DNA from: Terana coerulea
Taxonomy: Eukaryota > Basidiomycota > Agaricomycetes > Polyporales > Phanerochaetaceae
Length of the DNA: 64,000 nt
Assembly: GCA_024811115.1 (NCBI GenBank)
Contig: JAKOGH010000480.1
Coordinates: forward strand, 1-64,000
Direction: 5' to 3'
The notes beneath the pieces were generated by a model that saw only the letters and a program-made list of their open reading frames with translations, was not told where the DNA came from and made no database searches. This document shows, piece after piece, positions 11,324 through 62,953 of the stretch. How positions within the stretch are numbered: the stretch's first letter is position 1; each line of letters starts with the position of its first letter. Position numbers and translations under genes: made by a program.

Positions 11324-12280
11324 TCAGCCAGGAGCAGCTTCTTCTTCCCCCACGTCAAGGTGCCGGTTGATGTCATCGTGTAGCTTTTGCGTGGCGTCCT
11401 TGTGATGTTCTTGCTCTAACAAAGTAGGTAATGTGTGTGGAACTTAGCCTAACACTGATGAGGATACCATAAGTGCAATTTATTAGGAGATGCTCACCAG
11501 CCGTATGAAGAGAAGAGGCATGCTTGCTTGCACCCTCTAGTAGACATGCCGCATGATCCTGGGATATTTACAGGCCAGCTGCATGCTCGATACCATTAGC
11601 CGTAGGTCATTTTACATGCCGCAACAGGTCAACATAAACACGCAGCAGTGTGAGAAAGTACATACCAAGTGATCCTTCAAGAATGGGCCCGCGCTTATGG
11701 TGGTGTCTAACTTGTCATCGTCACCGCCAGTATCTGAATCGGAACCATCACTGCCGAAGATCTCGCGCTCCAGATCGCCATTAGGCTCGGATTGAAGAGA
11801 GGGTCGGGCGTTCAAGGAGCTCAAGCTTGAAACCGAACGGCCCATGGGTTTACTTCCTCGGTTTCAGTCTTCTCGGTTCGGCAAGCATGGCCCTCGCCCT
11901 ACATAAGCATTAGTAACCAGATACAAGCTTATCCAAAAATACAGCCTACCATAATCTTCCCTTCATCGTCAGTCTATAATGACCCGAGCCTTTGGCAGGG
12001 AGCGAAGTGTCGCATCCTTGACCTGTACACGTACTAGAGTCAATTTAAATCCGAGTAGAAGGAAGAGGCACTCGTACCAAGGTCAACAGGTAGCTGGTGA
12101 TACGAAGCGTGAGCTTGCACCCCAACCGCCTGGCCACTGCTTCGCACTACGAGACGGGTCAGGCGTGTAGAAGTGGGGGAGATCTTTGGGCTTACTATGT
12201 CCGATAACGTCCGACACGGTGAAGGTCGGGCTTGAGGAGTGTGTAGCGAAGTGGGCGAGAGCAGCATTGCACGCTGACAT
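11324..12280 (-). CDS. Gene X1: uncharacterised protein, acidic middle and helical C-terminus
   Basis: Function unknown. The start ATG (12280) begins a frame with the motif CNAALAHFATHSSS, also present at the start of X2 and, as CDAALAHYAT, in Y1/Y2. The reading continues through several exons. One ends near GTACGAGTGC and resumes as VRVQVKDATLRSLPKARV. The first clearly X1-specific exon (about 11670-11865) encodes an Asp/Ser/Gly-rich acidic segment with DGSDSDTGGDDDK. Two short C-terminal exons give ACLLEGASKHASSLHTA and EQEHHKDATQKLHDDINRHL, probably helical or coiled-coil, ending at TGA 11324-11326. The 5' part lies in inverted-repeat arm 1a and is nearly identical to X2. The 3' part outside the arm is unrelated in sequence but similar in layout. 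It is transcribed divergently from Z1. A G5 run at 12174 is C4 in X2, so one of the two is frameshifted. Confidence 0.5.
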
Positions 12281-12933
12281 GGATCGTCAATAAAGGAGGT
12301 AATGGCGGGAGAGCGAAAAAAACAAACAGGAGGAGTACGACTGGGACATGTTGGGCTGGCGATGGTGAAGAGAGAAGACGAGTGGTTGAAGTAGTGATAG
12401 TCACCAGTGACTTAAATACGGCATTAAATGCTAGCGATCGCACTAGCTTGGAAGTGCTTACCGAGCTCTCGACAAAACAGACAAAGGACGTATGGAGACC
12501 GGCTGAGATTTATGAAAACCTCGTTGCGGCGAAGCATGCGTCTCCGAAGCGTGCGAACCCTCATGTCGTGGATCCTAGTCTTTCAGGGCTTTGTGAATCT
12601 GTGATAAGAGTCGTCGGAGTGATTCACGGCAACAAGCCAACTCACCGAATGAGCACCGCATGACTGGGATGTGTGGAGAAAGGCGAGGCTGACGGCTGCG
12701 TCGTGTAGCGGCAACTGCTACTGCCCGTTCTGCCGGTGGCTTTGAGTCCTCAATGGGCATGCATATGGCGTCTGCCCAGCCTCATAGTGCCGGAGCCTGG
12801 TGTAGCGCACCCACGGTCTGAAAGGATGTTGTTGTTCGTTCGAGAAGGACTGAGCGAGGAGTGCGAGCGATATGAAGTCGAGATGAAGCAGACTTGGCGT
12901 GAAGCGCTCGCGCGAGAGTAAGATAAGATCGGC
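12281..12933. promoter_or_regulatory. Divergent intergenic core shared by all four X/Y-Z units
   Basis: About 470 bp from GAGCTCTCGACAAAACAGAC (12464) to the Z start recur almost unchanged at 48534-49000 (plus), and inverted at 30968-31437 and 60023-60485. This holds although the gene on the left differs (X or Y). The core therefore lies between two divergent genes and probably holds both promoters. It contains the conserved ATGAAGCAGACTTGG block at 12883 and overlapping GATA-type words (AAGATAAGAT) just upstream of the Z start. Promoter function is inferred from position and conservation only. Confidence 0.5.
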
Positions 12934-13455
12934 ATGTCAATGACGGCCCGGATCCATCTAAACGCCCGACAATTCTCAGCGTGGAGGGCGCGCGCTTGCA
13001 AAGTTGTCTTTGTCCAAGTGCCGTCCAGCAGCCTCAAGCCCGTATCAGCATGGCCGCACGCCCGAATACCTGGGGAGAAGCACGCACAGGGAGATGATTG
13101 CTCCGTCACAGCTCACAGGGGATCGCCACTCTCGGAGAGCTCCCGGTGCAGCGAGGGCTCGCGAGCAGGATCCCGCCAGCAGGGCGAACATCCGACCTAC
13201 CGCGGTCCGAGCCGCTCGACGGCCGCCTCGCTCGTCGAGAATATCGTCGCTAGCGGACGACTGCAGCACGGTGAGTCTGTCTATCAGGGCTCTATACGCT
13301 CTTCGTCTCTGACCTGTCTGCTTGGGTAGCGGTGTTCGAGCTACGTCCCCAACGGCCGCCCTCGCTTCGTCGAGAATATCGTCGCTGCGGACGACTGCAG
13401 CACGGTGAGTCTGTCTATCTGGGCTCTATACGCTCTTCGTCTCTGACCTATCTGC
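12934..13455 (+). CDS. Gene Z1: uncharacterised protein with repeated 25-codon exon modules
   Basis: Function unknown. The ATG at 12934 opens a frame of about 110 codons: MSMTARIHLNARQFS, then HAQGDDCSVTAHRGSP, GSRQQGEHPTYRG and SLVENIVAS. A donor GTGAGT follows at 13271. The next block, after an intron-like 59-nt segment ending GGGTAG, reads RCSSYVPNGRPRFVENIVAA in frame and ends at a second GTGAGT (13405). This is a duplicate of the preceding exon end. Six relatives elsewhere in the window keep the same exon-intron border (Z2-Z4 nearly identical; Z5-Z7 diverged), which supports a real transcribed unit. Composition is rich in Arg, Ser, Ala and Gly with low complexity, so a noncoding transcript is possible. 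Confidence 0.4.
13271..13455 (+). repeat. Module array in Z1 (about two exon-intron units of 134 bp)
   Basis: Donor-like GTGAGTCTGTCTATC occurs at 13271 and 13405, a spacing of 134 bp. Each unit has an intron-like half (GTGAGT to TAG or CAG, about 59 nt) and an exon-like half of 75-76 nt ending CTGCAGCACG. This is the shortest of the four arrays. After the last unit the acceptor region changes to CCCGAGCAG and the sequence becomes unique. Confidence 0.8.
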
Positions 13456-14079
13456 CCGAGCAGGCAATATGCTCGCCACGAACCGATTCTGCGTCTGGCG
13501 TGGGCTGAAGTGCTCGCGCGACCCTGGCTCGGCCGTCCATATTGAGTGACCGACGGGCTTCAGTATGTATGTTGAGGTCGTGTCTCCTGGTTTTTCCTGT
13601 CGACTTCCAGCGGTCGCAGCGTGTTAACGGGGAGGGCTGAGAGGGGATCCATATTCATTCACTTTTCTGCCTTTGATGCCTGTCAGCCCAAGCATTAGAC
13701 GTTCAGAATATGTTTCCTTTGTGTCTGCATACCATCGCTGCCACCTCACATACTACCCTCCAAATGGTGCGAAAGCAGTGCTGGTCGTCCGCCCTCGCTG
13801 TATAGTCGACCACCTTTGTTCTCTTTCTCCGTCGTCTGCAACGCTGTGCGCGCTGTTTCCTCGTGGCTGCACAATCGGGCATTGAACACTGCGTTTGCGT
13901 TGCTCAATCGTGTGCAGCGTCGATTCTTCGGATTGTCTTTGCATGACTAGTGGCACCAAAGGCACTTTCTAGCCTTTCATAGATGGATGGCTCTCGCGCT
14001 ATATATCTCGGCCCTGTCCTGGCTACCAGACATCATTCCCCAAATACTCTTCCTCGCTTGCGCTGCACACTGCCTCACT
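13456..14079. other. Unique spacer, no supported gene
   Basis: No recognisable domain. A 70-codon frame at 13673-13885 (plus) and its reverse shadow are the only open stretches. The end of the region probably includes the promoter of the BTB gene that starts at 14080. Confidence 0.35.
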
Positions 14080-17584: not shown

Positions 17585-18053
17585 TAAACCCACGACATCC
17601 ACGACCACATCACGTGATGAGTGCCCGTCACGCTTTTATCACATTTAGCGGGCGGAGAGCACACTTGAGCTTGTTTACTCGCACACAGTACAGCTGAGCA
17701 CAAAATGGCAACATGGAAACACAGAGAAGATGAACGCCGAATTTTATATGTAGCCGGAATTTGCGTAATCTCGCTGGGGACCACAAAACAACGAATGCAA
17801 GGCCACAAACTGGGTTTTGAATGAATCCTGATTTACATGCGCTAAGCAACTTAATATCATGGACCGTGAGACACCGCCTTCGCAGTGAGGGAAGGAAGAC
17901 GCGTCAGCGGTTGTGGCTAAGGCAGGACAGCGCCGAAGACAGCGCCAGATGTGCGCTGAGCGCCAGTCTCGGAGGCCCGGTGATGGGAGGTACTCCATTT
18001 GGAAGGTATCCAAATCGGGAAGTCACCTTGCTTGCAAGGTAACTAGGGCATTA
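17585..18053. other. Spacer between two MITE-like elements
   Basis: No supported gene. Short open frames on both strands, at most 96 codons, none recognised. Confidence 0.3.
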
Positions 18054-18265
18054 GGGCATTTTGGCAGCCGGGATATATCTATATCCATATCAGGAAGGCT
18101 GCCTAAAAGAGACGCTATCACGGCGGAACCCGAGGCAGACTCCCTGGACGCCCCTGCCTCACCCCACAGACCAATAGGAGCGCACCCTCAGATGCTGCGG
18201 TGATGGCAACCTCTTTAGGAAGCCTTCCTAAAAGGGCATGGATATATCCCGGTGCCAAAATGCCC
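18054..18265. mobile_element. MITE-like element with about 55-bp imperfect inverted ends and TA flanks
   Basis: GGGCATTTTGGCAGCCGGG from 18054 pairs with CCCGGTGCCAAAATGCCC ending at 18265. Complementarity continues inward through GATATATC, and AGGAAGGCTGCCTAAA pairs with TTTAGGAAGCCTTCCT. TA lies outside each end (18052-18053 and 18266-18267). Total length is 212 bp with no coding capacity. The ends differ from those of the other three elements in the window, so this is a separate family. Confidence 0.75.
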
Positions 18266-23034: not shown

Positions 23035-24399
23035 TTGGGAGGCATATCAGCGTTCCTGAGGGGACCCCGAATTGTGCAGAGAGCTGTAAGATTGCGATGA
23101 CACCTTGGATAGGGACTTCCAGGCGATCAGTACTGATGGAAAGTCAACACTTCGCAGTGAGCCTCTGAAGATTGCAGTACTCATCTCAAGTCCCCTAAGA
23201 GAAATAGAACGAGCCACTCAAGTCGTGTGCGGATATTTCTTGCAGAACCATGGGGTTGACCTCACATTGGCCTTCAGCACGGCCACTCCTTCCTGTGCTC
23301 GAGAACCTTGCCGAAATACCTCTGAGCGCTTCATCAAAACATTTATGGGCAATCGCCACACTCTTTGCTGAACCTTGATATAATCAGACACCCAAGGCAG
23401 AGGTAAAGACTGGAGTGGGACGTACTCACTTGAATAAACACGGATGGCTCGGAGGCTTCACACCTTTGCCACAGCGTCACAACGTATGCAGCAAGAAGGG
23501 CTACTACGACGGCCATACAATGTGGACCCGAGCATGAGAAAAGGTTCGGCCAATATCGTCGGAAGAGGTGAAGCCAACGTGGGAGGGATAGTCAGCTGAG
23601 GAAGGGTGGTCGACTCGGGAGGGGTGGTTGACTCGGAGGGGTGGTTGACTTAGACTTTTGCATGGATGGCAGGGAAGACCTACGGAAGTCATTTATACCA
23701 GAGTTGAGAAAGAGCATTGTGCAGGACACACGCTGATACGCCCCACAAAAACCGGCCGCATTTTGACCGCCGTTGCATACAACAAAGCAACAACAAAGAC
23801 CAGAAGGAGCCCAGCGCCATCGGTCTGAATGGTCAATCTAGATCCTGGGGTGACATGTGATTTGGGAGTTCGGAACCGACACGTAGCTGATATTACTTAT
23901 CTCAGTCTGCGGTCTAGGCTCGAACCAGCCACCTTGCACGTGAACATAACACTGGTCGCTATTAAGAATAACGTACCTCAAAGTACGTTCTTAAGAGCTA
24001 CCTGCGGGCTGGTAACGAAGTCTATCTGCGGTCCAACAAAGCGTCAGTGCATTGTTGTGCATTGTGGCAAGCGCGCGACATCGATAGCACCGGAATAAGG
24101 TTCAGCCGGTCTGGCGGGGGCTGGGGGGAGTACTTGGAGCTGGCGATCTATATGTAGGCAAGATCGGTCTAAGCGGCGCCGCGGTTGGAATTAAGTACAG
24201 TGTTTTTGACGATCCAGCAAAGTGAACGCAAAGTGATATGTGATACATGGAGACGAGGTACATAGTGCTTGCGACATGGCCTACCCTCGGAGTGGTGGCC
24301 GGTGTGCAGCCATGAGTTGATGCCCACGATCAAATTAACTACAAAGAAACAACGGCAACAGGGAAGCGTGATTGAGATAGGCATACTTGCTGCATCGAA
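23035..24399. other. Region without a supported gene; short in-frame tandem repeat
   Basis: At 23603-23655 three degenerate units of about 17-18 bp (GGGTGGTTGACTCGGA-like) follow each other. On the minus strand they would encode HPSR/DHPSS-like six-residue repeats. Open frames of 88-109 codons at 23105, 23829 and 24169 are not recognised. Confidence 0.35.
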
Positions 24400-25690
24400 G
24401 ATGAGGCCGGTGTCGGCCGACGTGCACATTTCCTGGTCCAACCGCTGCGATTGCTGGAAGTCAGGAGCAAGCCAGAGCACGAGGTCCGCCGCATGCACTG
24501 GAAGTACGCAGAGGATAAATTTCAGCGATCAGCCGGTGATCTTGCACTCCGGTAGCTACTCGCATGTTTCCGCGAACGGACAGGGAGGGGAAGAGGCGAC
24601 GGCGAGCGATGTAAATGCGTTCGGAAGGCGAAGAAAGTCGCATAGGTGGGGGGCGGGGCAGGACGAGCAACAAACATACGCTGAAGTGTGTACTAACGAG
24701 CGCAACCGGCGGGATGCGCTTCGACAACCGATAGGTGGTGCATGAACTCCGTCGTCGGTTCCAGTAGATTGGGTACAGGCGATGCCGAGCAATAATGATA
24801 TCGCCCGAACGGCAGGAGCTGGCGTAGAAAGGGCCGGCTGCATGAGCGACTGGGCGCACGTCGGCCAGTGGATTGCGTTTCGACAACCGGTGAGGGACTG
24901 CGACCTCCGCTTGCTGTCTCTTTTGACGACGAGCAGGTGGTGTGGAAGAACAATCCAGCGTTTAGCGTTCGTTACACAGATGGACGCTGAAAGGCGAGCG
25001 ACATAGATGTCGACGCCCGTCGGGCGGTGAAGGTGGTGGTCGTGGAGTGGTTGGATGACGCGGCGCTGAAGCGACTGAGCGCACGACGAAATGTTGCCCA
25101 GTGAAAACGAACAATGAGCAAAGCGTGGTGACAGCGGCCAGTGGGTTGCGTTTTCAACAACAGAATGTCCAGCAGGCAGCGGGCTACCCGTTTACTGCAC
25201 AGGCAGACACGTCAGAGATGATGCGACGCAGATGTCCAAACTTACCATGAAGCAGTAGCATGCAGCGACCATCCCTTCGACGAAGCGAGGCCGGCGGTCG
25301 GACGCGACTCGAAGGCTGGGGTTACCAGATCGGATGTTCGCCCTGCAGGCGGGATCCTGCCGCGACCCTCACTGCACGGGAGCACCCCCCAAGAGTGGCG
25401 GGTGATCCCTCGCGAGCTGCGGCTGAGCAGTCTTCTCCCTGTGCGCGTGCTTCTACGTAGGTATTCGGGCGTGCAGCCATGCTCGCATGGGCTTGAGGTT
25501 GAGGTACTCGTAGGGTGAGTCGAACAAACCGGGCAGCTGGAACTTCGAATTCGCAACGGCAGACGCGCGCCCTCGCATGCTGGACAATCTTTGGGCGTTT
25601 AGATGAAGGTAGATTTATCTTATCTCCTTCGCAAGCGCCTATAAGGTCACATCGCAAGTCTGCTTCATCTCGCCCTCATTCCTTGCTCGA
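24400..25690 (-). repeat. Diverged Z-type unit (Z5)
   Basis: Read on the minus strand from 25690 it has the same order of landmarks as Z1: AGATGAAGCAGACTTGCG at 25668, AACGCCC-A-GATTGTCCAGC, CACGCCCGAATACCTACGTAG, and CACAGGGAGAAGACTGCTC. Then come GCAGGGCGAACATCCGATC and a donor CATGGTAAGTTTGG with acceptor near 25205. Downstream parts (24400-25200) match 45350-46040 (Z7). Identity to Z1-Z4 is moderate and to Z6 (40270-40870) high. A stop follows GEHPIW in the frame corresponding to the Z1 protein, so this copy is probably not translated like Z1. Minus-strand frames of 111 and 141 codons exist (25322-25657 and 24461-24886). Confidence 0.6.
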
Positions 25691-28993: not shown

Positions 28994-30094
28994 AATCGGT
29001 GCTACACATCACTCTCAGTTTACGCCTGCTATTTCCAACAAGAAGAACGAGGAACACACTGCACAACCAGCTCGGGACCGTCAAGCTGTGCCAAGCTTTT
29101 GGTGGCTGCTTTTAGTGATACTATTGAGCATGGGGCGTAGGTGCCTAGCAAATGCATGGATGAAGGCTTGAGGGGATATAACTCTGTTGCTACCAGTGTA
29201 GGGACCAAATCACAATACTCCTTCTCCCCATTTCGACCATCAGCATAGACAGCTTACTGGACTTCACAGAACACCAAATGCACACGCTATCCTGGCACTG
29301 TTCATTATTATCAACACCACTGAATGAGTCTCATACACACATACCGCGGTCTTTGACCAACTCCAACTACCAACTCAACTACCAACCGACCCGACCACTG
29401 ACCGCTGACCACCACTGACCACCGCCGATCACGATCACTGACCTCGCTGACGATTGACCCCCAACCCAACTCGACCACACATCATCACTCTACTCGGTCC
29501 CACCCTACAAGCGCGACCATCAACGCTGCGAACCTCACGGAGTATTCGTCGTCAGCAGTTTAACCAGCGCATCCAGTGACGAATGGGGGACGGTAATGAG
29601 GGCACGACCACTGGATACATGCAGACGTGGGCTCAGCCGTGCCTGCAATTGTTGTTTACGGAGTAGCGGCGTAACGAGTTAAGTCCTCACCTAGCACCTG
29701 CCTAAAGCAACCACAGTCAGTCAGCAGAAGCAGAAAGGAGGTTGCCGATTTGCACCGACCATGGTTAGAGCAAGCCACCGCGTGTACTTTCCTGCATTCG
29801 AACGCTGGGATTACGGAAAGAGAAAGCAAGCCGGAAGGCGCGATCCACCCCACGCATGGTAAGGACGCCGGAGGCCTATTGATTGAGGGAATAAAAATGG
29901 GGGCGACGCGGGTGGTTACTGTCGATCACGACTGAGCGCATGGCAGAGTGCTGCCCAATGAAGCGGGCTGCGCTTCGACGATTGGCGGGTAGTGCGCAAC
30001 ACCCGTTCTTAGCGAACATGTTCACCCCCACTGCTTAGACGGATAGTTTAAAGACGAAGGTATGTGACACAGAATGTACACACTCACCTTGTCG
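28994..30094. other. Spacer with a low-complexity CCAAC/GACCACTGACC-rich tract
   Basis: About 29345-29520 is made of short degenerate repeats rich in CCAAC, GACC and CACTGACC. No gene recognised; open frames are at most 98 codons. Confidence 0.4.
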
Positions 30095-30690
30095 CATTCG
30101 TTCGCAGCGACGATATTCTCGACGAAGCGAGGGGCGGCCGTTGGGGACGTAGCTCGAACACCGCTACCCAAGCAGACAGGTCAGAGACGAAGAGCGTATA
30201 GAGCCCTGATAGACAGACTCACCGTGCTGCAGTCGTCCGCAGCGACGATATTCTCGACGAGCGAGGGCGGCCGTTGGGGACGTAGCTCGAACACCGCTAC
30301 CCAAGCAGACAGGTCAGAGACGAAGAGCGTATAGAGCCCTGATAGACAGACTCACCGTGCTGCAGTCGTCCGCAGCGACGATATTCTCGACGAGCGAGGG
30401 CGGCCGTTGGGGACGTAGCTCGAACACCGCTACCCAAGCAGACAGGTCAGAGACGAAGAGCGTATAGAGCCCTGATAGACAGACTCACCGTGCTGCAGTC
30501 GTCGCAGCGACGATATTCTCTGACGAAGCGAGGGCGGCCGTTGGGGACGTAGCTCGAACACCGCTACCCAAGCAGACAGGTCAGAGACGAAGAGCGTATA
30601 GAGCCCTGATAGACAGACTCACCGTGCTGCAGTCGTCCGTAGCGACGATATTCTCGACGAGCGAGGGCGGCCGTCGAGGACAGCGGCTCG
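30095..30690 (-). repeat. Module array in Z2 (about five exon-intron units)
   Basis: The word GCCCTGATAGACAGACTCACC recurs at 30203, 30336, 30469 and 30603, giving periods of 133, 133 and 134 bp. A further partial unit lies at 30095, with a divergent CACTCACCTTGTCGCATTCG junction. Units differ by one-base changes such as GACGAAGCGAGGGGCGG against GACGAGCGAGGGCGG. This is the longest array of the four. Confidence 0.85.
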
Positions 30691-30967
30691 AAGACCGCGG
30701 TAGGTCGGATGTTCGCCCTGCTGGCGGGATCCTGCTGCGAGCCCTCGCTGCACCGGAAGCGCCCTCCGAGTGGCGATCCCCTGTGAGCTGTGACGGAGCA
30801 ATCATCTCCCTGTGCGTGCTTCTCCCCAGGTATTCGGGCGTGCGGCCATGCTGAGTACGGGCTTGAGGCTGCTGGACGGCACTTGGACAAAGACAACTTT
30901 GCAAGCGCGCGCCCTCCACGCTGAGAATTGTCGGGCGTTTAGATGGATCCGGGGCCGTCATTGACAT
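30095..30967 (-). CDS. Gene Z2: near-identical copy of Z1
   Basis: Same organisation as Z1 on the opposite strand: ATG at 30967, a first exon of about 110 codons, a donor at the TGCAGCACG/GTGAGT junction, then repeated modules. Here the C run near the start is CCCC instead of CCC, which shifts the frame after MSMTA. The SLVENIVATDD end is therefore in another frame than the start. Function unknown. Divergently transcribed from X2. Confidence 0.35.
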
Positions 30968-31621
30968 GCCGATCTTATCTTACTCTCGCGCGAGCGCTTC
31001 ACGCCAAGTCTGCTTCATCTCGACTTCATATCGCTCGCACTCCTCGCTCAGTCCTTCTCGAACGAACAACAACATCCTTTCAGACCGTGGGTGCGCTACA
31101 CCAGGCTCCGGCACTATGAGGCTGGGCAGACGCCATATGCATGCCCATTGAGGACTCAAAGCCACCGGCAGAACGGGCAGTAGCAGTTGCCGCTACAACG
31201 ACGCAGCCGTCAGCCTCGCCTTTCTCCACACATCCCAGTCATGCGGTGCTCATTCGGTGAGTTGGCTTGTTGCCGTGAATCACTCCGACGACTCTTATCA
31301 CAGATTCACAAAGCCCTGAAAGACTAGGATCCACGACATGAGGGTTCGCACGCTTGGAGACGCATGCTTCGCCGCAACGAGGTTTTCATAAATCTCAAGC
31401 GGTCTCCATACGTCCTTTGTCTGTTTTGTCGAGAGCTCGGTAAGCACTTCCAAGCTAGTGCGATCGCTAGCATTTAATGCCGTATTTAAGTCACTGGTGA
31501 CTATCACTACTTCAACCACTCGTCTTCTCTCTCTTCACCATCGCCAGCCCAACATGTCCCAGTCGTACTCCTCCTGTTTGTTTTTTTCGCTCTCCGCCAT
31601 TACCTCCTTTATTGACGATCC

Positions 31622-33154
31622 ATGTCAGCGTGCAATGCTGCTCTCGCCCACTTCGCTACACACTCCTCAAGCCCGACCTTCACCGTGTCGGACGTTATCG
31701 GACATAGTAAGCCCAAAGATCTCCCCACTTCTACACGCCTGACCTGTCTCGTAGTGCGAAGCAGTGGCCAGGCGGTTGGGGTGCAAGCTCACGCTCGTAT
31801 CACCAGCTACCTGTTGACCTTGGTACGAGTGCCTCTTCCTTCTACTCGGATTTAAATTGACTCTAGTACGTGTACAGGTCAAGGATGCGACACTTCGCTC
31901 CTGCCACAAGGCTCGGGTCATTATAGACTGACGATGAAGGGAAGATTATGGTAGGCTGTATTTTTGGATAAGCTTGTATCTGGTTACTAATGCTTATGTA
32001 GGCGAGGGCCATGCTTGCCGAACCCGAGAAGGCTGAAATCACGAGTGCTTCTACGCCAATCGCTGACGAGGGCGATCTCTGAGGCTGTCTGGTGTTCATC
32101 TTCTACACTCCCGCTCGCGAACCTCACGATATCGTTCTTTTGCCTGGGACGTAATCTGCCAATTCGGGTCCTGCCGTTCTGGACGATGACGGCCTATCAG
32201 AACTGTCCAGCATTGCCTCCAAGTTGCCCAGCATCAGCTCCGAGCTGTCCCCCATCAACATCACCCAGGGCCGAAATGACCAGGGCGTCGGGCTTGGCAG
32301 ACGATGCAGCACCATCTGAACGGATCTACCAGGCGTCGGTGACAATCTTCCGACTCGTTCCTCCTCGCCCTCATCCCCGCACAGCACCTATGAACCTATG
32401 AACCGTGGGAACTACTACCCAGGTTAGCACTTTCGCTGTTTTTGTGATATATCTTTTATTTAACGTATACTATCAGGTGACTTTCTCGATATCAAAATCT
32501 TTGACTTGAGTTCTCGTACTGTCACCCACGCTGTGGTTCCCGCAGATCCCGAGCTGCTGTATCCAGATGACGACGACGCTGCAGATCCTGAGTTGCTGTA
32601 TCCAGGCAGCGACGACGCCGCCGCCGCCGTAGATCCCGAGTCGTTGTATCCAGGGTGATGATGACGGCGACGATGGCGGTGCTTTGGCAGAGGTCACGAG
32701 CCCAACGATATGCACACGGAGGGCGAGATAAGTATTGGTCGAGTGACCATGTCAATGCCTTCGACGAGCACACCCGTGACGACTCTGGATCCACAAGTCA
32801 AGGTTCCAGGCAGAGAATCGAAGTTGCAAACCCATGCAGTAGGTCTACCTCCATTTTATGCAACACATGGTCATTGCTGATGACTATAGACGGGGCTAGC
32901 CCTACTGATTACCTCGCTCGAAAGGCTTCGTCGGGATATGGGGCGTTCGCCGACATTGCCATGGCAAGACGAACTCAAGCGCCTTCATGAGTTGGCTGTA
33001 AGTGCCCTTTAATGTCTAGAACATCAATCCGTCTCACTCTCGTTAGGCCATGCTACTCAATGAAACGTCAGCTTTTGTGCAAGAAGAAGCTGAGGCGGAC
33101 AGTCTTCGGAGGGCCCACGCCCGATATCGTGAGCTGTCTCACGCACGGTGCTGA
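31622..33154 (+). CDS. Gene X2: uncharacterised protein with acidic repeats and coiled-coil C-terminus
   Basis: ATG 31622 starts CNAALAHFATHSSS as in X1. The 5' exons lie in repeat arm 1b, and from about 32045 the gene is unique. Unique pieces are LDDDGLSELSSIASKLPSIS, SELSPINITQGRNDQGVG and, after an intron ending ACTATCAG, GDFLDIKIFDLSSRTVTHAV. Three acidic repeats DPELLYP/DPELLYP/DPESLYP separated by Asp/Ala runs follow (32544-32655). The last exons give ALLITSLERLRRDMGRSPTL, WQDELKRLHELA and AMLLNETSAFVQEEAEADSL with HARYRELSHARC, ending at TGA 33152-33154 and probably a coiled coil. Frame changes occur at least three times (C4 at 31727, near 32090, near 32653). Function unknown; the acidic centre and helical end parallel X1. 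Confidence 0.55.
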
Positions 33155-40269: not shown

Positions 40270-40870
40270 AGCATGGTGATACGGTAGAAGACGAACTGGA
40301 CTGAGCAAGGAATGAGGGCGAGATGAAGCAGACTTGCGATGTGACCTTATAGGCGCTTGCGAAGGAGATAAGATAAATCTACCTTCATCTAAACGCCCAA
40401 AGATTGTCCAGCATGCGAGGGCGCGCGTCTGCCGTTGCGAATTCGAAGTTCCAGCTGCCCGGTTTGTTCGACTCGTACCTCTGATACCTCAACCCTCAAG
40501 CCCATGCGAGCATGGCTGCACGCCCGAATACCTACGTAGAAGCACGCGCACAGGGAGAAGACTGCTCAGCCGCAGCTCACAGGGGATCGCCCGCCACTCT
40601 TGGGGGGTGCTCCCGTGCAGTGAGGGTCGCGGCAGGATCCCGCCTGCAGGGCGAACATCCGATCTGGTAACCTCAGCCTTCGAGTCGCGTCCCCGGCCGG
40701 CCTCGCTCGTCGAAGGGATGGTCGCTGCATGCTACTGCTTCATGGTAAGTTTGGACATCTGCGTCGCATCATCTCTGACGTGTCTGCCTGTGCAGTAAAC
40801 GGGTAGCCCGCTGCCTGCTGGACATTCTGTTGTTGAAACGCAACCCACTGGCCGCTGTCATCACGCACAC
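40270..40870 (+). repeat. Diverged Z-type unit (Z6)
   Basis: Highly similar to the reverse complement of 25135-25690 (Z5) and moderately to Z1. Landmarks: ATGAAGCAGACTTGCG at 40323, an AAGATAA word at 40371, CACGCCCGAATACCTACGTAG at 40522, GGCGAACATCCGATCTGG at 40650, SLVEGMVAACYCFM coding text before the donor ATGGTAAGTTTGG at 40742, and the acceptor TGTGCAG near 40796. A 154-codon frame is open across the first exon (40334-40798) but starts at TTG. The GEHPIW frame stops at TAA 40671. No X/Y-type gene precedes it; the BTB gene ends only about 100 bp upstream. Confidence 0.6.
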
Positions 40871-45079: not shown

Positions 45080-46062
45080 AGCAACTGCAAGAGAGAAGGC
45101 GGCAAATAGAGGCAATAGGTCAGACACCACGTGACGTCGCAACAAGTGTTCAGCTTTCTCACAACCGGCCACGTAGTTGCGGTACGCCCGTACTCGAGCT
45201 GCGGCTGGCATACGGTCATGACCGCTCACGGCCTCATCTAGAATTACGATACAGTCAATGGCAGTATAGATGGCTAGCTGAGAGACATACACTGGCATCG
45301 ACAATAGGCCCGACGGATCGCTATCGGTGGCAACGGGGGCCAGCCGCTGACGTGCACATTTCCAGGTCCGAACGCTGCGATTGCTGGAAGTCGGAAGCAA
45401 GCCAGAGCACGAGGTCCGCCGCATGCGCTGAAAGTACATAGGAGATGCATTTGACAGGCGGGACGAACAACAAACATATCGCTGAAAGCGTGTACCAACG
45501 AGCGCGACTAGCGGGGTGCGCTTCGACAACCGATAGATGGTGCACGAACTCCGTCATTGGCTCCTGTGGATGGGGTACAGGTGATGTCGAGCAATAAGGA
45601 TACCGCCCGAACGGCAGGAGCTGGCGATGGAAAGGACAGGCGGCGTGAGCGACCGGGCGCACGTCTGCCAGTAAATTGCGTCTCGACCACCGGTAGAGGA
45701 TGTGCGACCTCCGCTTACTACCCTTCAATGACGAGCAGGTGATGTGAAAGACCCATCCACGTTTCGCGCGTTCGTTACACAGATAGACGCTGAAAGGCGA
45801 GCGATATAGACGTCGGCGCCCGTCGGCCGGTGTAGAGGAGTAGTTACGGTGAGTCGTTTGACACGGCCGGGGGGACGGAGCGCGCGACGAGATGTTGTCG
45901 TGAAAACAGCCAGCGAGTGTGCGTGGTGACAACGGTCAGTGGACTGCATTTTCAACCGACCGAATGCACAGCGGCTAGCGGGCTATCCGCTGACTGCACA
46001 GGCAGACCGGTCAAATATGATAGGGGCATGCGACGCAGATTCGCAAACTCACCTTAAAGCAA
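45080..46062 (-). repeat. Diverged Z-type unit, downstream part (Z7), abutting inverted-repeat arm 2a
   Basis: Read from 46062 leftwards it matches 25240-24400 (Z5 downstream part). Shared landmarks are the intron after TTTAAG/GTGAGTTTGCG, CTGCCTGTGCAG, GTGTAACGAACGCG, TCGTTGGTACACGC, CCAGCAATCGCAGCG and GACGTGCACATTTCC-like words. The first exon of this unit is not of the Z type. Instead the sequence changes exactly at about 46063 into arm 2a (gene W1). A minus-strand frame of 203 codons (45321-45932) starts at TTG and is not recognised. Confidence 0.6.
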
Positions 46063-46148
46063 CCGCTGTGTGTATCAAGGTTGTACGACTTGGCTCTGTC
46101 CAGCGAAATGGTGAAGGCGGAGGATTAATATTAGGTCATCTCGAGGAT

Positions 46149-47147
46149 TTAGGCGTTATGAGGGTCCGCTTGTAGCGCTCGCGTAGTCCTAAATCTGCGG
46201 GGTAAAGGATAAGAACAATGGGTAAACAGAGAGCGTACTTTGGCCCAAGTTTGACTATCGTTTGCAGCGAGCACTCCGACCTGTGGGTACTCCGTCTTGG
46301 TGGACTGTATGTTGGACTGTAGCTGCCTGACGAGACTATTAGCCATGGCCAGGCGACTGACTACGAATCGTTGCGTACTCTTCGAGCTCTGCAACGCTGG
46401 GCGATCGTCCATCTTGCCATGGCTGTGGCTTCCAATATCTGACAAGAATGTGTCCTGGGTTTCCCATGTCGCCTTCCTTGGGGCAGGCACACTCCAATCG
46501 GGGGCCTTCTTGACGCGGTATCCCGTAGCAGTCAAACATCCATCTACGTGTCGTGAGTGTGCGATCCGTAAAATACCCCAATAAAATGCGCACCTCAACC
46601 GCTCACAGTAATATGACACGTTCACTACAACCTTGAGGGCCAGATCATGAACCATGCCACCTCTGCCAAATTCGAGTACACACCCACCGGGTCGCGGTAG
46701 CCCCAGTGTCCCGGGTCGTCCCACTGCTCTTCTGGCCCGCTCGCCCGCGCGCTGCAGCAAGCGTTTCTGCGGCAAAGTAGTCAATGCGCCGGACGACCTT
46801 CTATACTCGTCCGAGTCCCAGGCAACGGCCTTCAGCATCGCGAGGGTGTCTGAGAGTGGAGAGTGCCGGCACAGGTAGATTGGGCAAGTTGCTCTGCGCG
46901 GCGAAACGTCGGTCCAGGCAACAGCGCGGGCGCCGCTTCCTTCCAACCTTCTTGTTGCTTTGCGCTCGTTGCCATTTGTCTCGCCAGCGCAGCGTGTCTT
47001 TGTGGCGAAGGAGAGAGTACGAAGAGGGATACGTTGGGACTTGATTAGCGGGATAACATGGATGAAAGACAGCGAGCAGTACTTGACCCAGCGGACCGAC
47101 ACCGAGGCATTGCCAAAGCTTATCTTATCTGTTATGTGAGCGCACAC
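46149..47147 (-). CDS. Gene W1: uncharacterised, 332-codon open frame
   Basis: This is the longest uninterrupted frame in the window but it starts at GTG; the first ATG in frame is about a third of the way in. No domain recognised. The C-terminal segment MANSLVRQLQSNIQSTKTEY and VGVLAANDSQTWAK is helical, and it is followed by a good donor GTACGCTCTC and an acceptor CCCCGCAG. An alternative with an intron (GTGAGCGGTT to ACACGTAG, about 46550-46612) is possible. The copy W2 is broken by indels in this frame. W follows Y on the same strand with only about 80 bp between them and carries the conserved ATGAAGCAGATTTGG block at its 5' side (47163). Confidence 0.35.
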   Translation of the reverse strand: MCAHITDKISFGNASVSVRWVKYCSLSFIHVIPLIKSQRIPLRTLSFATKTRCAGETNGNERKATRRLEGSGARAVAWTDVSPRRATCPIYLCRHSPLSDTLAMLKAVAWDSDEYRRSSGALTTLPQKRLLQRAGERARRAVGRPGTLGLPRPGGCVLEFGRGGMVHDLALKVVVNVSYYCERLRCAFYWGILRIAHSRHVDGCLTATGYRVKKAPDWSVPAPRKATWETQDTFLSDIGSHSHGKMDDRPALQSSKSTQRFVVSRLAMANSLVRQLQSNIQSTKTEYPQVGVLAANDSQTWAKVRSLFTHCSYPLPRRFRTTRALQADPHNA

Positions 47148-47239
47148 ACCAAATCTGCTTCATTTCGGCCTTCCACCAAAGTAAATCACACGTCCATACA
47201 TACAAGTAAAGAAAAGAGACTAGTACATAAAGAAAGAAA

Positions 47240-48508
47240 CTATTTACGACTATGAGTTGTCTGCGCATCATACAGCTTGTACTTCTCCCATGCACAACTC
47301 TCTTCGAGATGGCATTTCATAAGCCGCTCGTTGGCCTCAAGAGCAACCTTGAACTGACAAGCATTGTACCGTTAGTGCAAGTCTTACGTGAATAATTGAA
47401 TGCTCACAATTTCCAGCATTCCGTCTGTAGTCCCCTGCCTACCCTTCCCACTGTAGTCGTCATGAGTGGAACAGGGGCTTGCGGGAATGGACTGAACAGC
47501 CCGCCTCCTGTATCAAACCCAGGCCCTGGAGCGCTTGTCGATACCCTAGAGGTTTTGCCAGTGTCCTCGGTTTCGGATCTATGTGCCCCTGCGCCATCTG
47601 GATCATGCTCGGAGGGGTGGGAACATAGCCTCGGCTTTTTCGTCTTGGCCGCCGTTGCCCGCCGTACTCCCCCTCGAGTAAATCAATATGGAGGGTAGCC
47701 AATGCCTGGTGAAGGTGACCTATGGTTACAGGGGGCGTCGGAATTGGTGGACGAGCGTCCGCTGTCGAGGTTTGCCGAAGGGGTAGCGAGAGGCATGCCG
47801 GTCGTTGCAGCGGGCCCTGCGTCGGTAAGCGCACCTAGTACACGGCGGCGAGCCTCCAGCAGGGGATACACCTTGGGCCGATGGCTTGACGTGCGCCAGC
47901 GATTGGACATCCGCGTCCGGCCGCCCTCGCTCGGTTGGGTCTGACCGCGCGCCGATGTGTTGACAAGCTCCCTGTATCTGCATGCAGCGCTTCGAATGAG
48001 AACGTGCTAAGCGACAACGAACTTACCGGAGCCGGCCTCTAGCCGTCAAGCGGAACTGACCGGAGCCTCGGGACAAGGAGCGCAGTGTGGCATTGTTCAC
48101 CTGCCGTGGAGCACGTCAGAACGGTCTGACAGAGGAGAGTAGAGCGACCGTACGTACTAGCGTAGTGAAGTACTCTTCGATGCACGCTCGAGCTTTGGAG
48201 CCGGTGTACAGGTCGCTGTCACGAACTATAGAAAATGTCAGCGGGAGTCGGGCCGATGACAATTTATCTACGGTAAGCGAGGATCGATGTTACCAGAACG
48301 AAGGGGTTTGACGGCGGGTGGCGTAATGCGCCAAGGCCGCGTCGCATGCTAGTTCCGTTTGAAGGTGTGAGTCGCGGGTGATGGAAAAATAATGACAGAC
48401 GTACCAGCTATGTAGTAGTGCTTGGTCATGATGAGCGAGAATGAATCGAATAGCGGACTGACGAAACAACGACAGCTCAGGTTGCCTTAAATAAGAGTGA
48501 GCAGACAT
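47240..48508 (-). CDS. Gene Y1: uncharacterised AT-hook-like, helical-tail protein
   Basis: ATG 48508 starts HSYLRQPELSLFRQSAIRFI, then CDAALAHYATRRQTPSF, the counterpart of CNAALAHFAT in X1/X2. After introns: VRDSDLYTGSKARACIEEYF, VNNATLALLVPRLRSVPLDG, then QTQPKRGRPDADVQSLAHVK, whose KRGRP core resembles an AT-hook (minor-groove DNA binding). A Pro/Ser-rich middle and HLHQALATLHIDLLEGEYGG follow. The last exon, after an intron GTGAGCATTC to GCTTGTCAG, reads FKVALEANERLMKCHLEESC and WEKYKLYDAQTTHSRK, ending at TAG 47240-47242. The layout (conserved N-terminal motif, low-complexity centre, helical tail) parallels X1/X2. Nuclear or DNA-binding function is inference from one short motif. Confidence 0.5.
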
Positions 48509-49000
48509 TCCTAGAGGTCAGGGAGTACTTCCCGAGCTCTCGACAAAACAGACAAAGGACGTATGGAGACCGCTGAGATTTATGAAAACCTCGTTCGCGG
48601 CCAAGCATGCGTCTCCGAAGCGTGCGAACCCTCATGTCGTGGATCCTAGTCTTTCAAGGGCTTTGTGAATCTGTGATAAGAGTCGTCGGAGTGATTCACG
48701 GCAACAAGCCAACTCACCGAATGAGCACCGCATGACTGGGATGTGTGGAGAAAGGCGAGGCTGACGGCTGCGTCGTGTAGCGGCAACTGCTACTGCCCGT
48801 TCTGCCGGTGGCTTTGAGTCCTCAATGGGCATGCATATGGCGTCTGCCCAGCCTCATAGTGCCGGAGCCTGGTGTAGCACCCACGGTCTGAAAGGATGTT
48901 GTTGTTCGTTCGAGAAGGACTGAGCGAGGAGTGCGAGCGATATGAAGTCGAGATGAAGCAGACTTGGCGTGAGCGCTCGCGCGAGTAAGATAAGATCGGC
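48509..49000. promoter_or_regulatory. Divergent core between Y1 and Z3
   Basis: Shares about 470 bp almost unchanged with 12464-12933, including ATGAAGCAGACTTGG at 48953 and the AAGATAAGAT word. The first about 25 bp next to Y1 are Y-specific, so the X/Y difference begins just left of GAGCTCTCGACAAAACAGAC (48534). Small differences from core 1 include a missing GC pair (TGTAGCACCC against TGTAGCGCACCC). Confidence 0.5.
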
Positions 49001-49680
49001 ATGTCAATGACGGCCCGGATCCATCTAAACGCCCGACAATTCTCAGCGTGGAGGGCGCGCTTGCAAAGTTGTCTTTGTCCAAGTGCCGTCCAGCAGCCTC
49101 AAGCCCGTACTCAGCATGGCCGCACGCCCGAATACCTGCGGGAGAAGCACGCACAGGGAGATGATTGCTCCGTCACAGCTCACAGGGGATCGCCACTCTC
49201 GGGAGGGCGCTCCGGTGCAGCGAGGGCTCGCAGCAGGATCCCGCCAGCAGGGCGAACATCCGACCTACCGCGGTCTTCGAGCCGCTGTCCTCGACGGCCG
49301 CCCTCGCTCGTCGAGAATATCGTCGCTACGGACGACTGCAGCACGGTGAGTCTGTCTATCAGGGCTCTATACGCTCTTCGTCTCTGACCTGTCTGCTTGG
49401 GTAGCGGTGTTCGAGCTACGTCCTCAACGGCCGCCCCTCGCTTCGTCGAGAATATCGTCGCTGCGACGACTGCAGCACGGTGAGTCTGTCTATCAGGGCT
49501 CTATACGCTCTTCGTCTCTGACCTGTCTGCTTGGGTAGCGGTGTTCGAGCTACGTCCCCAACGGCCGCCCCTCGCTTCGTCGAGAATATCGTCGCTAGCG
49601 GACGACTGCAGCACGGTGAGTCTGTCTATCTGGGCTCTATACGCTCTTCGTCTCTGACATGTTTGCCCGGCTAGTGAGCG
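49001..49680 (+). CDS. Gene Z3: near-identical copy of Z1
   Basis: ATG 49001, the same first exon text (MSMTARIHLNARQFSAWRAR) and the same donor at 49345, then three module units. In this copy the first exon end reads VENIVATDDCST before GTGAGT. Two two-base or one-base differences in the first exon (GGGCGCGCTTGC against GGGCGCGCGCTTGC; GTACTCAGC against GTATCAGC) put parts in other frames than in Z1. Function unknown. Confidence 0.35.
49345..49680 (+). repeat. Module array in Z3 (about three exon-intron units)
   Basis: GTGAGTCTGTCTATC at 49345, 49480 and 49615 (period 135 bp). The last unit carries the variant TATCTGGGCTC and ends CTGACATGTTTGCCCGGCTAG, after which the sequence is no longer modular. 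Confidence 0.85.
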
Positions 49681-51141: not shown

Positions 51142-51197
51142 CTGTTGGAATTGTACAGGAACAGAGCATGCACGCTGGACTTATATAGCCAAGTCCA

Positions 51198-55652: not shown

Positions 55653-56601
55653 ATGATCCCAGCCTCTAGATTCCGAGCGATATGGTGCGATGGATACAAG
55701 CGGGAAGCAGTGGACAAGGTGTGCACTATCATCCACCGGCGAGCGCGATTCGAGCTCACTAACATGAACGCACAGGTTCTCGAGCTCAAAACGGATTGTT
55801 GGGAGTTGAAGACAGTGATACTAAACCTGGAGGGGTGAGTATACCCCATAGATACAAAGGATGAACACATGGAAGCTGAAACCAATCAATAGAACCATAT
55901 TTCTGTATCCCTCACGGCTGTGGCTCTATTTTGCGTTAGCCACAACGGTCATTGCCATACTTTCGTACGCGAACTCTTGACGTCGACAACACGCTCGACA
56001 AGGTGTGGCTTTTACGCAAGGATTGGAGCTGAGCGTTAATCGGAGCCGGAGGGCGGACAGCGACCCTACCCAAACTCGAGGCCGCCGTTGTTCCCGTCTC
56101 TCTAGAGGCGTCGGCCAAACGCGTATACTCCCATGGCCATTCTCCCAAACCACACTTAGCGAATCCACTATCAACTGCGACAGCGCATCCCGGGATGGCG
56201 TTTTGAACGCGGCAGTGCAGGCCGGAAATTGCTGGTGGTTTCAAGGCTCTCATGGGCAGCTCACAATCATGCTGAACAAAATCGCGTATGTTACCCACAT
56301 ATCCATTGATCACCTTGCAGCGGATCTCCACACTGCACCGCGGGAGATCGTACTTTGGGGACTGGTGGATGGTGCTTTCAACGTCGGACGCTACCAGGAG
56401 GCTTATACCAGACTTAACGCTCTATGGACGCATTTTCCGGCTCCAAAAGTCCACCACAAGTCCCCCCCTGAGATGACGTTTTTGCCGATTGCGGTCATTC
56501 ACTACGACACATTTGCGTCTACCAGGCGTCAATATTTTCGCGTATTCGATGCCGTCGTGGATACCGGTTTGCACTTGAGTCATTCTCGTCCAGGTCAATA
56601 G
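55653..56601 (+). CDS. SUN-domain (Sad1/UNC-84) protein
   Basis: SUN proteins sit in the inner nuclear membrane and bind KASH partners to link nucleus and cytoskeleton; some fungal relatives act elsewhere. The first visible exon has MIPASRFRAIWCDGY and a helical segment NAQVLELKTDCWELKTVILN ending at GTGAGTATAC. The next exon encodes one transmembrane helix LWLYFALATTVIAILSY, then VDNTLDKVWLLRKDW. The SUN domain follows: NAAVQAGNCWWFQGSHGQLT, THISIDHLAADLHTAPREIV, LWGLVDGAFNVGRYQEAYTR and FLPIAVIHYDTFASTRRQYF, reading to TAG 56599-56601. The order coiled coil, membrane helix, SUN fits the family. The last strands of the domain are missing or in a further exon. Two single-base frame changes lie near 55980 and 56030. 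Confidence 0.7.
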
Positions 56602-57744: not shown

Positions 57745-57757
57745 TCATAGGATGTTT

Positions 57758-58094: not shown

Positions 58095-58181
58095 TCGTCT
58101 GAGGCTGAGTAACTATATATATATGAGTGGTCCCAGGGTAAACAAAGCCACAAGCAAGAGCAATGGGAAAGAAAGGCAGAT

Positions 58182-59204: not shown

Positions 59205-59224
59205 ACGCTCACTAGCCGGGCAAA

Positions 59225-59735
59225 CATGTCAGAGACGAAGAGCGTATAGAGCCCAGATAGACAGACTCACCGTGCTGCAGTCGTCCGCAGCGACGATATT
59301 CTCGACGAAGCGAGGGGCGGCCGTTGGGGACGTAGCTCGAACACCGCTACCCAAGCAGACAGGTCAGAGACGAAGAGCGTATAGAGCCCAGATAGACAGA
59401 CTCACCGTGCTGCAGTCGTCCGCAGCGACGATATTCTCTGACGAAGCGAGGGGCGGCCGTTGGGGACGTAGCTCGAACACCGCTACCCAAGCAGACAGGT
59501 CAGAGACGAAGAGCGTATAGAGCCCTGATAGACAGACTCACCGTGCTGCAGTCGTCCGCAGCGACGATATTCTCGACGAAGCGAGGGGCGGCCGTTAGAC
59601 GTAGCTCGAACACCGCTACCCAAGCAGACAGGTCAGAGACGAAGAGCGTATAGAGCCCTGATAGACAGACTCACCGTGCTGCAGTCGTCCGTAGCGACGA
59701 TATTCTCGACGAGCGAGGGCGGCCGTCGAGGACGC
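59225..59735 (-). repeat. Module array in Z4 (about four exon-intron units)
   Basis: GCCC(A/T)GATAGACAGACTCACC recurs at 59251, 59386, 59522 and 59655 (periods 135, 136, 133). One unit lacks GGG in the CGTT-GGGG-ACGTAGC word (59597), and one has an extra T (ATTCTCTGACGAAG). Confidence 0.85.
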
Positions 59736-60022
59736 TGGCTCGGGCACCGCGGTAGGTCGGATGTTCGCCCTGCTGGCGGGATCCTGCTGCGAGCCCTCGC
59801 TGCACCGGAGCGCTTCTCCGAGAGTGGCGATCCCCTGTGAGCTGTGACGGAGCAATCATCTCCCTGTGCGTGCTTCTCCCCCAGGTATTCGGGCGTGCGG
59901 CCATGCTGAGACGGGCTTGAGGCTGCTGGACGGCACTTGGACAAAGACAACTTTGCAAGCGCGCGCTCTCCACGCTGAGAATTGTCGGGCGTTTAGATGG
60001 ATCCCGGGGCCGTCATTGACAT
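59225..60022 (-). CDS. Gene Z4: near-identical copy of Z1, frame disrupted
   Basis: ATG at 60022 followed by MSMTAPGSI and a stop, because the run is CCCCGGG instead of CCCGG as in Z1 and Z3. The rest of the first exon, the donor at the array start and the modules are otherwise as in Z1. Function unknown; divergent to Y2. Confidence 0.3.
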
Positions 60023-60509
60023 GCCGATCTTATCTTACTCTCGCGCGAGCGCTTCACGCCAAGTCTGCTTCATCTCGACTTCATATCGCCGACTCTCTCA
60101 GTCCTTCTCGAACGAACAACAACATCCTTTCAGACCGTGGGTGCGCTACACCAGGCTCCGGCACTATGAGGCTGGGCAGACGCCATATGCATGCCCATTG
60201 AGGACTCAAAGCCACCGGCAGAACGGGCAGTAGCAGTTGCCGCTACACGACGCAGCCGTCAGCCTCGCCTTTCTCCACACATCCCAGTCATGCGGTGCTC
60301 ATTCGGTGAGTTGGCTTGTTGCCGTGAATCACTCCGACGACTCTTATCACAGATTCACAAAGCCCCTTGAAAGACTAGGATCCACGACAGGGTTCGCACG
60401 CTTCGGAGACGCATGCTTCGCCGCAACGAGGTTTTCATAAATCTCAGCGTCTCCATACGTCCTTTGTCTGTTTTGTCGAGAGCTCGGGAAGTACTCCTGA
60501 CCTCTAGGA

Positions 60510-61784
60510 ATGTCTGCTCACTCTTATTTAAGGCAACCTGAGCTGTCGTTGTTTCGTCAGTCCGCTATTCGATTCATTCTCGCTCATCATGACCAAGCAC
60601 TACTACATAGCTGGTACGTCTGTCATTATTTTTCCATCACCCGCGACTCACACCTTCAAACGGAACTAGCATGCGACGCGGCCTTGGCGCATTACGCCAC
60701 CCGCCGTCAAACCCCTTCGTTCTCGGTAACATCGATCCTCGCTTACCGTAGATAAATTGTCATCGGCCCTGACTCCCGCTGACATTTTCTATAGTTCGTG
60801 ACAGCGACCTGTACACCGGCTCCAAAGCTCGAGCGTGCATCGAAGAGTACTTCACTACGCTAGTACGTACTCTGGTCGCTCTACTCTCCTCTGTCAGACC
60901 GTTCTGACGTGCTCCACGGCAGGTGAACAATGCCACACTCGCGCTCCTTGTCCCGAGGCTCCGGTCAGTTCCGCTTGACGGCTAGAGGCCGGCTCCGGTA
61001 AGTTCGTTGTCGCTTAGCACGTTCTCATTCTGAAGCGCTGCATGCAGATACAGTGAGCTTGTCAACACATCGGCGCGCGGTCAGACCCAACCGAAGCGAG
61101 GGCGGCCGGACGCGGATGTCCAATCGCTGGCGCACGTCAAGCCATCGGCCCAAGGTGTATCCCCTGCTGGAGGCTCGCCGCCGTGTACTAGGTGCGCTTA
61201 CCGACGCGAGGGCCCGCTGCAACGACCGGCATGCCTCTCGCTACCCCTTCGGCAAACCTCGACAGCGGACGCCGTCCACCAATTCCGACGCCCCCCTGTA
61301 ACCATAGGTCACCTTCACCAGGCATTGGCTACCCTCCATATTGATTTACTCGAGGGGTACGGCGGGCAACGGCGGCCAAGACGAAAAGCCGAGGCTATGT
61401 TCCCACCCCTCCGAGCATGATCCAGATGGCGCAGGGGCACATAGATCCGAAACCGAGGACACTGGCAAAACCTCTAGGGTATCGACAAGCGCTCCGGGGC
61501 CTGGGTTTGATACAGGAGGGCGGGCTGTTCAGTCCATTCCCGCAAGCCCCTGTTCCACTCATGACGACTACAGTGGGAAGGGTAGGCAGGGGACTACAGA
61601 CGGAATGCTGGAAATTGTGAGCATTCAATTATTCACGTAAGACTTGCACTAACGGTACAATGCTTGTCAGTTCAAGGTTGCTCTTGAGGCCAACGAGCGG
61701 CTTATGAAATGCCATCTCGAAGAGAGTTGTGCATGGGAGAAGTACAAGCTGTATGATGCGCAGACAACTCATAGTCGTAAATAG
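60510..61784 (+). CDS. Gene Y2: near-identical copy of Y1
   Basis: ATG 60510, same exons as Y1: CDAALAHYATRRQTPSF, DSDLYTGSKARACIEEYF, VNNATLALLVPRLRSVPL, KRGRPDADVQSLAHVK, the Pro/Ser-rich middle, MLEI joined to FKVALEANERLMKCHL, and TAG at 61782-61784. The two copies differ by small indels (A4 at 61386 against T5 in Y1; GAGGGGTACGG against GAGGGGGAGTACGG), so one or both frames are broken in the middle. Flanked by Z4 (divergent) and W2 (same strand). Confidence 0.5.
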
Positions 61785-61860
61785 TTTCTTTCTTTATGTA
61801 CTAGTCTCTTTTCTTTACTTGTATGTATGGACGTGTGATTTACTTTGGTGGAAGGCCGAA

Positions 61861-62879
61861 ATGAAGCAGATTTGGTGTGTGCGCTCACATAACAGTAAGA
61901 TAAGCTTTGGCAATGCCTCGGTGTCGGTCCGCTGGGTCAAGTACTGCTCGCTGTCTTTCATCCATGTTATCCCGCAATCAAGTCCCAACGTATCCCTCTT
62001 CGTACTCTCCTTCGCCACAAAGACACGCTGCGCCTGGCGAGACAAATGGCAACGAGCGCAAAGCAACAAGAAGGTTGGGGAAGCGGCGCCCGCGCTGTTG
62101 CCTGGACCGACGTTTCGCCGCGCAGAGCAACTTGCCCAATCTACCTGTGCCGGCACTCTCCACTCTCAGACACCCTCGCGATGCTGAAGGCCGCTGCCTG
62201 GGACTCGGACGAGTATAGAAGGTCGTCCGGCGCATTGACTACTTTGCCGCAGAAACGCTTGCTGCAGCGCGGGCGAGCGGGCCAGAAGAGCAGTGGGACG
62301 ACCCGTGACACTGGGGCTACCGCGACCCGGTGGGTGTACTCGAATTTGGCAGAGGTGGCATGGTTCATGATCTGGCCCTCAAGGTTGTAGTGAACGTGTC
62401 ATATTACTGTGAGCGGTTGAGGTGCGCATTTTATTGGGGTATTTTACGGATCGCACACTCACGACACGTAGATGGATGTTTGACTGCTACGGGATACCGC
62501 GTCAAGAAGGCCCCGATCGGAGTGTGCCTGCCCCAAGGAAGGCGACATGGGAAACCCAGGACACATTCTTGTCAGATATTGGAAGCCACAGCCATGGCAA
62601 GATGGACGATCGCCCAGCGTTGCAGAGCTCGGGAAGAGTACGCAACGATTCGTAGTCAGTCGCCTGGCCATGGCTAATAGTCTCGTCAGGCAGCTACAGT
62701 CCAACATACAGTCCACCAAGACGGAGTACCCACAGGTCGGAGTGCTCGCTGCAAACGATAGTCAAACTTGGGCCAAAGTACGCTCTCTGTTTACCCATTG
62801 TTCTTATCCTTTACCCCGCAGATTTAGGACTACGCAGCGCTACAAGCGGACCCTCATAACGCCTAAATCCTCGAGATGA
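61861..62879 (+). CDS. Gene W2: copy of W1 with broken frame
   Basis: The same sequence as W1, but the long frame is split into pieces (62046-62390, 62330-62677, 62547-62879). It opens at an ATG of the conserved ATGAAGCAGATTTGG block (61861), giving MKQIWCVRSHNSKISFGNAS. The terminal intron GTACGCTCTC to CCCCGCAG (about 62781-62821) is conserved. Function unknown. Confidence 0.3.
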
Positions 62880-62953
62880 CCTAATATTAATCCTCCGCCT
62901 TCACCATTTCGGGCTGGACAGAGCCAAGTCGTACAACCTTGGTACACACAACG

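Follow-up and report, generated by a model that had tools for sequence, protein, structure and literature searches.

Inverted X/Y-core-Z gene units clustered at a single locus of the Terana coerulea genome

INTRODUCTION

The HD (A) mating-type locus of agaricomycetes consists of several divergent gene pairs, and in the MAT/HML/HMR cassettes of yeasts alternative genes lie close together on the chromosome. Pack-MULEs and Helitrons are DNA transposons that capture genes. In Hansenula (Ogataea) polymorpha, the MAT loci are inverted, and recombination can exchange or invert them (PMC4238957). The wtf spore-killer genes of fission yeast form a multi-intron, partly clustered family for which ectopic gene conversion has been proposed; PMC5478263 describes them as often near LTRs, mostly on chromosome III, and encoding multi-transmembrane proteins.

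In this study, we examined a gene unit in the genome of Terana coerulea (48,433,245 bp in 896 contigs). The window covers the initial 64 kb of contig C377 (108,945 bp), in which an initial annotation had recognized four near-identical units, each with a left partner of type X or Y and a right partner Z placed back to back around a common core. The rest of C377, which was analysed entire, and the whole of contig C443 (15,174 bp) were added. The unit is undescribed, and its copies in this genome were found only at its locus and on C443, which is redundant with it.

RESULTS

Self-comparison revealed all four units at the places given in the annotation (Table 1). The segments 11862-13455 (+) and 32038-30438 (-) share 97.7% identity and the segments 46064-49674 (+) and 62953-59347 (-) 97.6%, while core plus Z of the remaining pairs among the four units agree at 95.9 to 97.1%. 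Beyond the window, C377 harbors a further full unit, U5 (87015-88945), and a Z-only copy, U6 (86535-86012), so that there are five full units, all on C377. Among them, substitutions affect 11 of the 434 columns of the core. X-type and Y-type units are homologous on one side only, from core to Z; the start of the shared sequence lies upstream of the X/Y TATA-like box by a few tens of bases, and the duplication breakpoints fall within genes. A switching cassette of the MAT/HML/HMR type was rejected, since it requires flanks common on both sides and here they are common on one side only.

Table 1. Coordinates of units, Z-type elements and leader sites on C377 (the window is positions 1 to 64,000)
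Feature	Position	Strand	Remarks
U1 X-type gene, N-terminal exons and TATA-like box	11862..12449	-	ATG 12349; continues leftward in sequence not common to U2
U1 core	12450..12879	.	Common to five full units
U1 Z element	12880..13455	+	Leader, exon-like part, two intron-like 59-nt segments
Z-type element W24	24300..25671	-	Behind FHA/protein-kinase gene
U2 Z element	30031..31021	-	Tandem array, 4.6 copies of 133 bp, the longest
U2 core	31022..31451	.	
U2 X-type gene, N-terminal exons	31452..32038	+	ATG 31554; beyond 32038 unlike U1
Z-type element W40	40320..40866	+	Behind BTB-like gene (label by eye); inverted copy at C377:73653
Z-type element W45	45330..47166	-	Leader, gene fragment 47106-46152, intron-like tail
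U3 Y-type gene	47243..48520	-	ATG 48429; C-terminal exon end near 47243
U3 Y exons, placed by eye	48429-48405, 48348-48272, 48225-48158, 48100-48027, 47977-47726	-	
U3 core	48521..48949	.	
U3 Z element	48950..49674	+	Tandem array, 2.9 copies
U4 Z element	59212..60076	-	Tandem array, 3.9 copies
U4 core	60077..60495	.	
U4 Y-type gene	60496..61781	+	ATG 60589
Inverted W45 copy	61858..62953	+	Behind Y of U4; homology stops at 62953
Leader, behind core (five sites)			
Leader, behind FHA/kinase gene	25671		
Leader, behind BTB-like gene	40320, 73653		
Leader, behind Y3/Y4	47166, 61858		
Leader, behind Y5	86533		

All Z-type elements start with a 17-bp leader, GARATGAAGCAGAYTTG, for which we found 13 sites in the 48.4-Mb genome, 11 on C377 and 2 on C443; a whole-genome control search with the reversed leader returned 0 sites. 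Since 11 leader sites on C377 compare with 0.00005 expected and the inverted arms, up to 377 nt long, were reported as 100% complementary, chance can be excluded as the origin of the arrangement. The leader joins five left contexts to two kinds of body on its right. The left flanks resemble one another no more, or hardly more, than random sequences would, with two exceptions, namely, the kinase and BTB-like contexts, which have about 20 bp in common, and Y3 and Y5, which are homologous genes. To the right, the bodies are common to several contexts, being either the Z/W body or the fragment at 47166 and 61858.

The diverged Z relatives that had been noted before were recovered by self-comparison as well: 25123-25688 and 40303-40866 are 97% identical to each other and 75 to 79% to Z, and 24657-25254 matches 45457-46061 at 79%. 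A tandem repeat of about 133 bp within Z is composed of one intron-like and one exon-like segment. Six Z copies contain 17 donor-like sites, 16 of them with an acceptor by pattern, and all 16 resulting segments measure 59 nt; the exon-like segments (n = 11) span 74 to 77 nt. In U5, the array has 1.9 copies, and the 3' ends of Z vary between copies. At 9034-9132, in the AT-richer left part of the window, six-frame comparison gave a weak match to the repeat's exon-like part, perhaps an old Z remnant. Neither codon periodicity nor a codon-like substitution pattern was detected in Z/W in a low-power test on 10 short blocks. Thus, the reading of the unit as a back-to-back gene pair held for X/Y and lacked support for Z.

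The gene fragment within W45 occurs at 46152-47106 (-), 61864-62863 (+), and C377 66042-66772 (-). Among the unit and Z-type sequences searched, it alone has relatives elsewhere in the genome, on contigs C42 (75 to 78%) and C652 (71%); the former is open for 125 amino acids at 65% identity, and the latter contains three stops. A genome-wide search with the core, as the annotation had proposed, gave six matches, five on C377 and one on C443, and the W24 query had no match outside these two contigs. Apart from two weak X matches that contain stops and were judged by eye to be unrelated, the X and Y queries gave no relative outside these contigs. Exon-wise X/Y profiles run on C377 identified the five copies and nothing more. 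With core, W24, and leader matches confined to C377 and the redundant C443, the idea of a dispersed mobile element was not borne out.

As claimed earlier, no transposase was recognized in the units: 144 ORFs of C377, drawn mostly from its 240 ORFs of at least 100 amino acids, yielded four families (Sad1_UNC, JmjC, DUF4218, and FHA) in one ORF apiece. A dispersed transposon of the TIR, Helitron, LTR, or MITE kind found no support, as core, W24, and leader matches are confined to the locus and the unit ORFs scanned contain no transposase or replicase. Ribosomal DNA, tRNA, or another known RNA repeat was discarded too, since the window holds 0 tRNAs and gives 0 Rfam matches at the gathering score.

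Z might still be a non-autonomous mobile element that makes short hops and inserts behind genes, with the X/Y units duplicated along as passengers. This would suit the sharp 5' boundary in five contexts, the relationship of the W45 gene fragment to C42 and C652, and the Z copies of U6 and U5 that flank Y5 as outward inverted repeats. We nevertheless regard it as quite improbable, because the searches detected no copy beyond the locus, whereas a short element at 21.3 kb has dispersed copies, no transposase family appeared among the unit ORFs scanned, and no common 3' end of Z was seen. That short element (21348-21579, with 26 dispersed copies among the matches listed) is one of three short MITE-like repeats in the window with copies dispersed in the genome, the others lying at 17585-17888 and 18049-18271.

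X and Y both carry the motif CxAALAHxAT, in agreement with the annotation, which had described two kinds of left partner with a common motif. Their coding sequence is conserved, since one frame is well kept in exon 2 although only 39 of 75 bases (52%) agree there: the BLOSUM score is 73 in frame and -23 and -13 in the other frames, and differences by codon position amount to 11/7/18. In exon 4, the corresponding counts are 9/4/13 and 8/4/14 for the two X copies, both of which are one base short relative to Y, each at a different place. The typed protein models share 36 identical columns (47%). The first five exons of Y, placed by eye, are bordered by GT-AG in every copy (U3, U4, and U5), and the X introns, also by eye, lie at matching places. 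On these grounds, X and Y have the character of ancient coding paralogues. Neither has a Pfam or PDB match. Their N-terminal 85 residues (helices, followed by LVxxATLRSLxxGSGxxRLTxxGRL) may resemble a winged helix, and DNA binding by X/Y would be a guess by analogy.

Each of the three Y copies has private frame-breaking length differences, and together with the short exon 4 of X, these could mean that the genes are dead. The cluster would then be a graveyard of duplicated, decaying copies of formerly functional genes, devoid of present function; pairwise indels of 0.5 to 1.8%, seldom in multiples of three, and a codon-usage scan of C377 in which none of 16 coding-like segments fell in X/Y exons point the same way. 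We consider this rather unlikely, as X and Y were kept in one frame over an old divergence and the indel rate barely tracks the substitution rate (0.7 to 12.6%). Furthermore, the indels lean toward CpG sites, as basecalling errors in unpolished repeats would, although real decay may be involved as well.

Comparison of copies revealed 17 indels and 17 substitutions in 1,586 bases for U1/U2, 38 and 33 in 3,579 bases for U3/U4, and 18 and 33 in 1,784 bases for U3/U5. The indels are mostly of one base, and of 27 indels checked for context, 19 lie at CpG sites, which make up 47.5% of positions. Because indels are about as frequent as substitutions and lean toward CpG, we think that many X/Y frame breaks may be consensus errors of the assembly. 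For the same reason, part of the divergence between copies is perhaps assembly error, so that their homogeneity is not datable.

Over its whole length, C443 can be aligned with C377:73669-88876, at the cost of 623 mismatches and 550 gap openings. Its mismatches are strand-asymmetric, whereas those of the diverged contig pair C244/C706 are not, and C443 apparently represents one long read of the C377 locus, left unpolished, and no independent allele. Left in the assembly as a 15-kb contig, it could pass for a second haplotype. As it passes through U6 and U5 in the order seen on C377, C443 supports this inverted pair. Disappearance of the inverted copies in a better assembly would have spoken against the annotation, but such a loss is unlikely, given this colinearity and the different flanks of the units.

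An FHA/protein-kinase gene lies at about 25904-27801 (-); its kinase match (5.5e-5, 26372-26581) and its FHA match (0.0096, 27290-27694) fall short of the Pfam cut-off, and six-frame self-comparison placed a paralogue at 36.7 to 37.1 kb. Sad1_UNC (55981-56598) was above the cut-off. DUF4218 (C377:92669-93100) was below it and outside the units; by eye, this region reads as transposase-like. The BTB-like label at 14.0 to 15.5 and 38.9 to 40.2 kb was likewise given by eye only, and none of the 48 matches listed in a Pfam BTB search of the genome was on C377. JmjC (2.5e-5) was absent from 50 ORFs or pieces scanned singly.

Near the ends of C377, decayed repeat copies in inverted orientation lie at 2029-6720 and 96830-102588. 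Transitions account for almost all of their substitutions, 90 of 101 in one repeat pair and 202 of 209 in the other, with 12 indels in each. Such an excess resembles that expected after C-to-T decay of methylated repeats. A neighbouring inverted arm pair of about 280 to 300 bp, 88 to 93% alike, lies at 104722-106638. With regard to the subtelomeric origin mentioned in the annotation, no TTAGGGTTAGGG was found on either strand of C377.

DISCUSSION

The most plausible explanation, and in our judgement a probable one, is a cluster confined to its locus that arose by inverted segmental duplication, is kept uniform through ectopic gene conversion, and has the leader as its recurring junction. Inverted duplication would have built the cluster at a single locus, conversion, judged here from one genome, would keep the copies alike, and the leader would mark where they are joined, X and Y being the putative protein genes of the cluster. 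Duplication plus conversion fits best because exon 2 of X and Y agrees at about half of its bases while the adjoining core is nearly uniform; the units are 95.9 to 97.7% alike, against 52% for X/Y in exon 2. The copies are thus closer to one another than paralogues of such age should be, as in a clustered multigene family under concerted evolution. Very recent duplication alone would account just as well for the identity of X1/X2 and of Y3/Y4. Segmental duplication with conversion was one of two origins considered in the annotation, and it is favored by copies at one locus and breakpoints within genes; the other was a mobile or subtelomeric element, for which, as a dispersed mobile element, the searches gave no support.

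Very doubtfully, the leader together with AAGATAAG might serve, at this locus alone, as a joint for recombination that would shuffle 5' and 3' gene parts between inverted copies and give mosaic X/Y proteins under a common upstream region. If our reading of the cluster is right, the locus would be a small, self-contained example from nature of mosaic gene evolution, in which two old gene types sit under one homogenised upstream region and a short sequence marks the joints within 109 kb and is not found elsewhere in the 48-Mb genome. Localised, sequence-marked gene shuffling in fungi outside yeasts would thereby become testable. The locus also advises caution: frame breaks in near-identical long-read repeats are not proof of pseudogenes without reads.

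Mating-type loci were considered as well. The HD (A) locus was rejected with 10 genome matches to PF05920, on C244, C706, C140, and C357 (oppositely oriented on C244 and C706) and none on C377, and so was the P/R (B) locus, with 23 genome matches to the STE3 receptor (PF02076) and none on C377. The opposite orientation of the homeodomain matches on C244 and C706 is, like the short GT-AG introns, what one would look for in a basidiomycete. A self/non-self or selfish locus, be it a meiotic driver, an incompatibility locus, or an unrecognised mating-related one, that maintains and reshuffles the old types X and Y, seems extremely improbable. Two old types do lie adjacent and locally clustered, with identical 5' parts and switching C-terminal parts, and ectopic conversion has been proposed for the wtf drivers too (PMC5478263); but the homeodomain and STE3 matches sit on other contigs, and nothing connects X/Y with such a function.

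In comparison with known systems, the cluster resembles each only in part. Like the agaricomycete HD (A) locus, it brings several copies of a divergent gene pair together in one place, but C377 is without a homeodomain match. With Pack-MULEs and Helitrons it shares a sharp 5' end and, in W45, a fragment of another gene carried by a Z-type element; unlike them, it is not dispersed in the searches made. No terminal repeats were identified, nor any target duplications, the units offering no clean ends at which to look for them. As in the yeast cassettes and H. polymorpha MAT (PMC4238957), alternative genes lie nearby and might be exchanged or inverted by recombination, yet no mating-type gene was found, there are five copies, and homology is one-sided. 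Finally, X/Y resemble the wtf genes (PMC5478263) in being a clustered multi-intron family with proposed ectopic conversion, and differ from them in being confined to a single locus.
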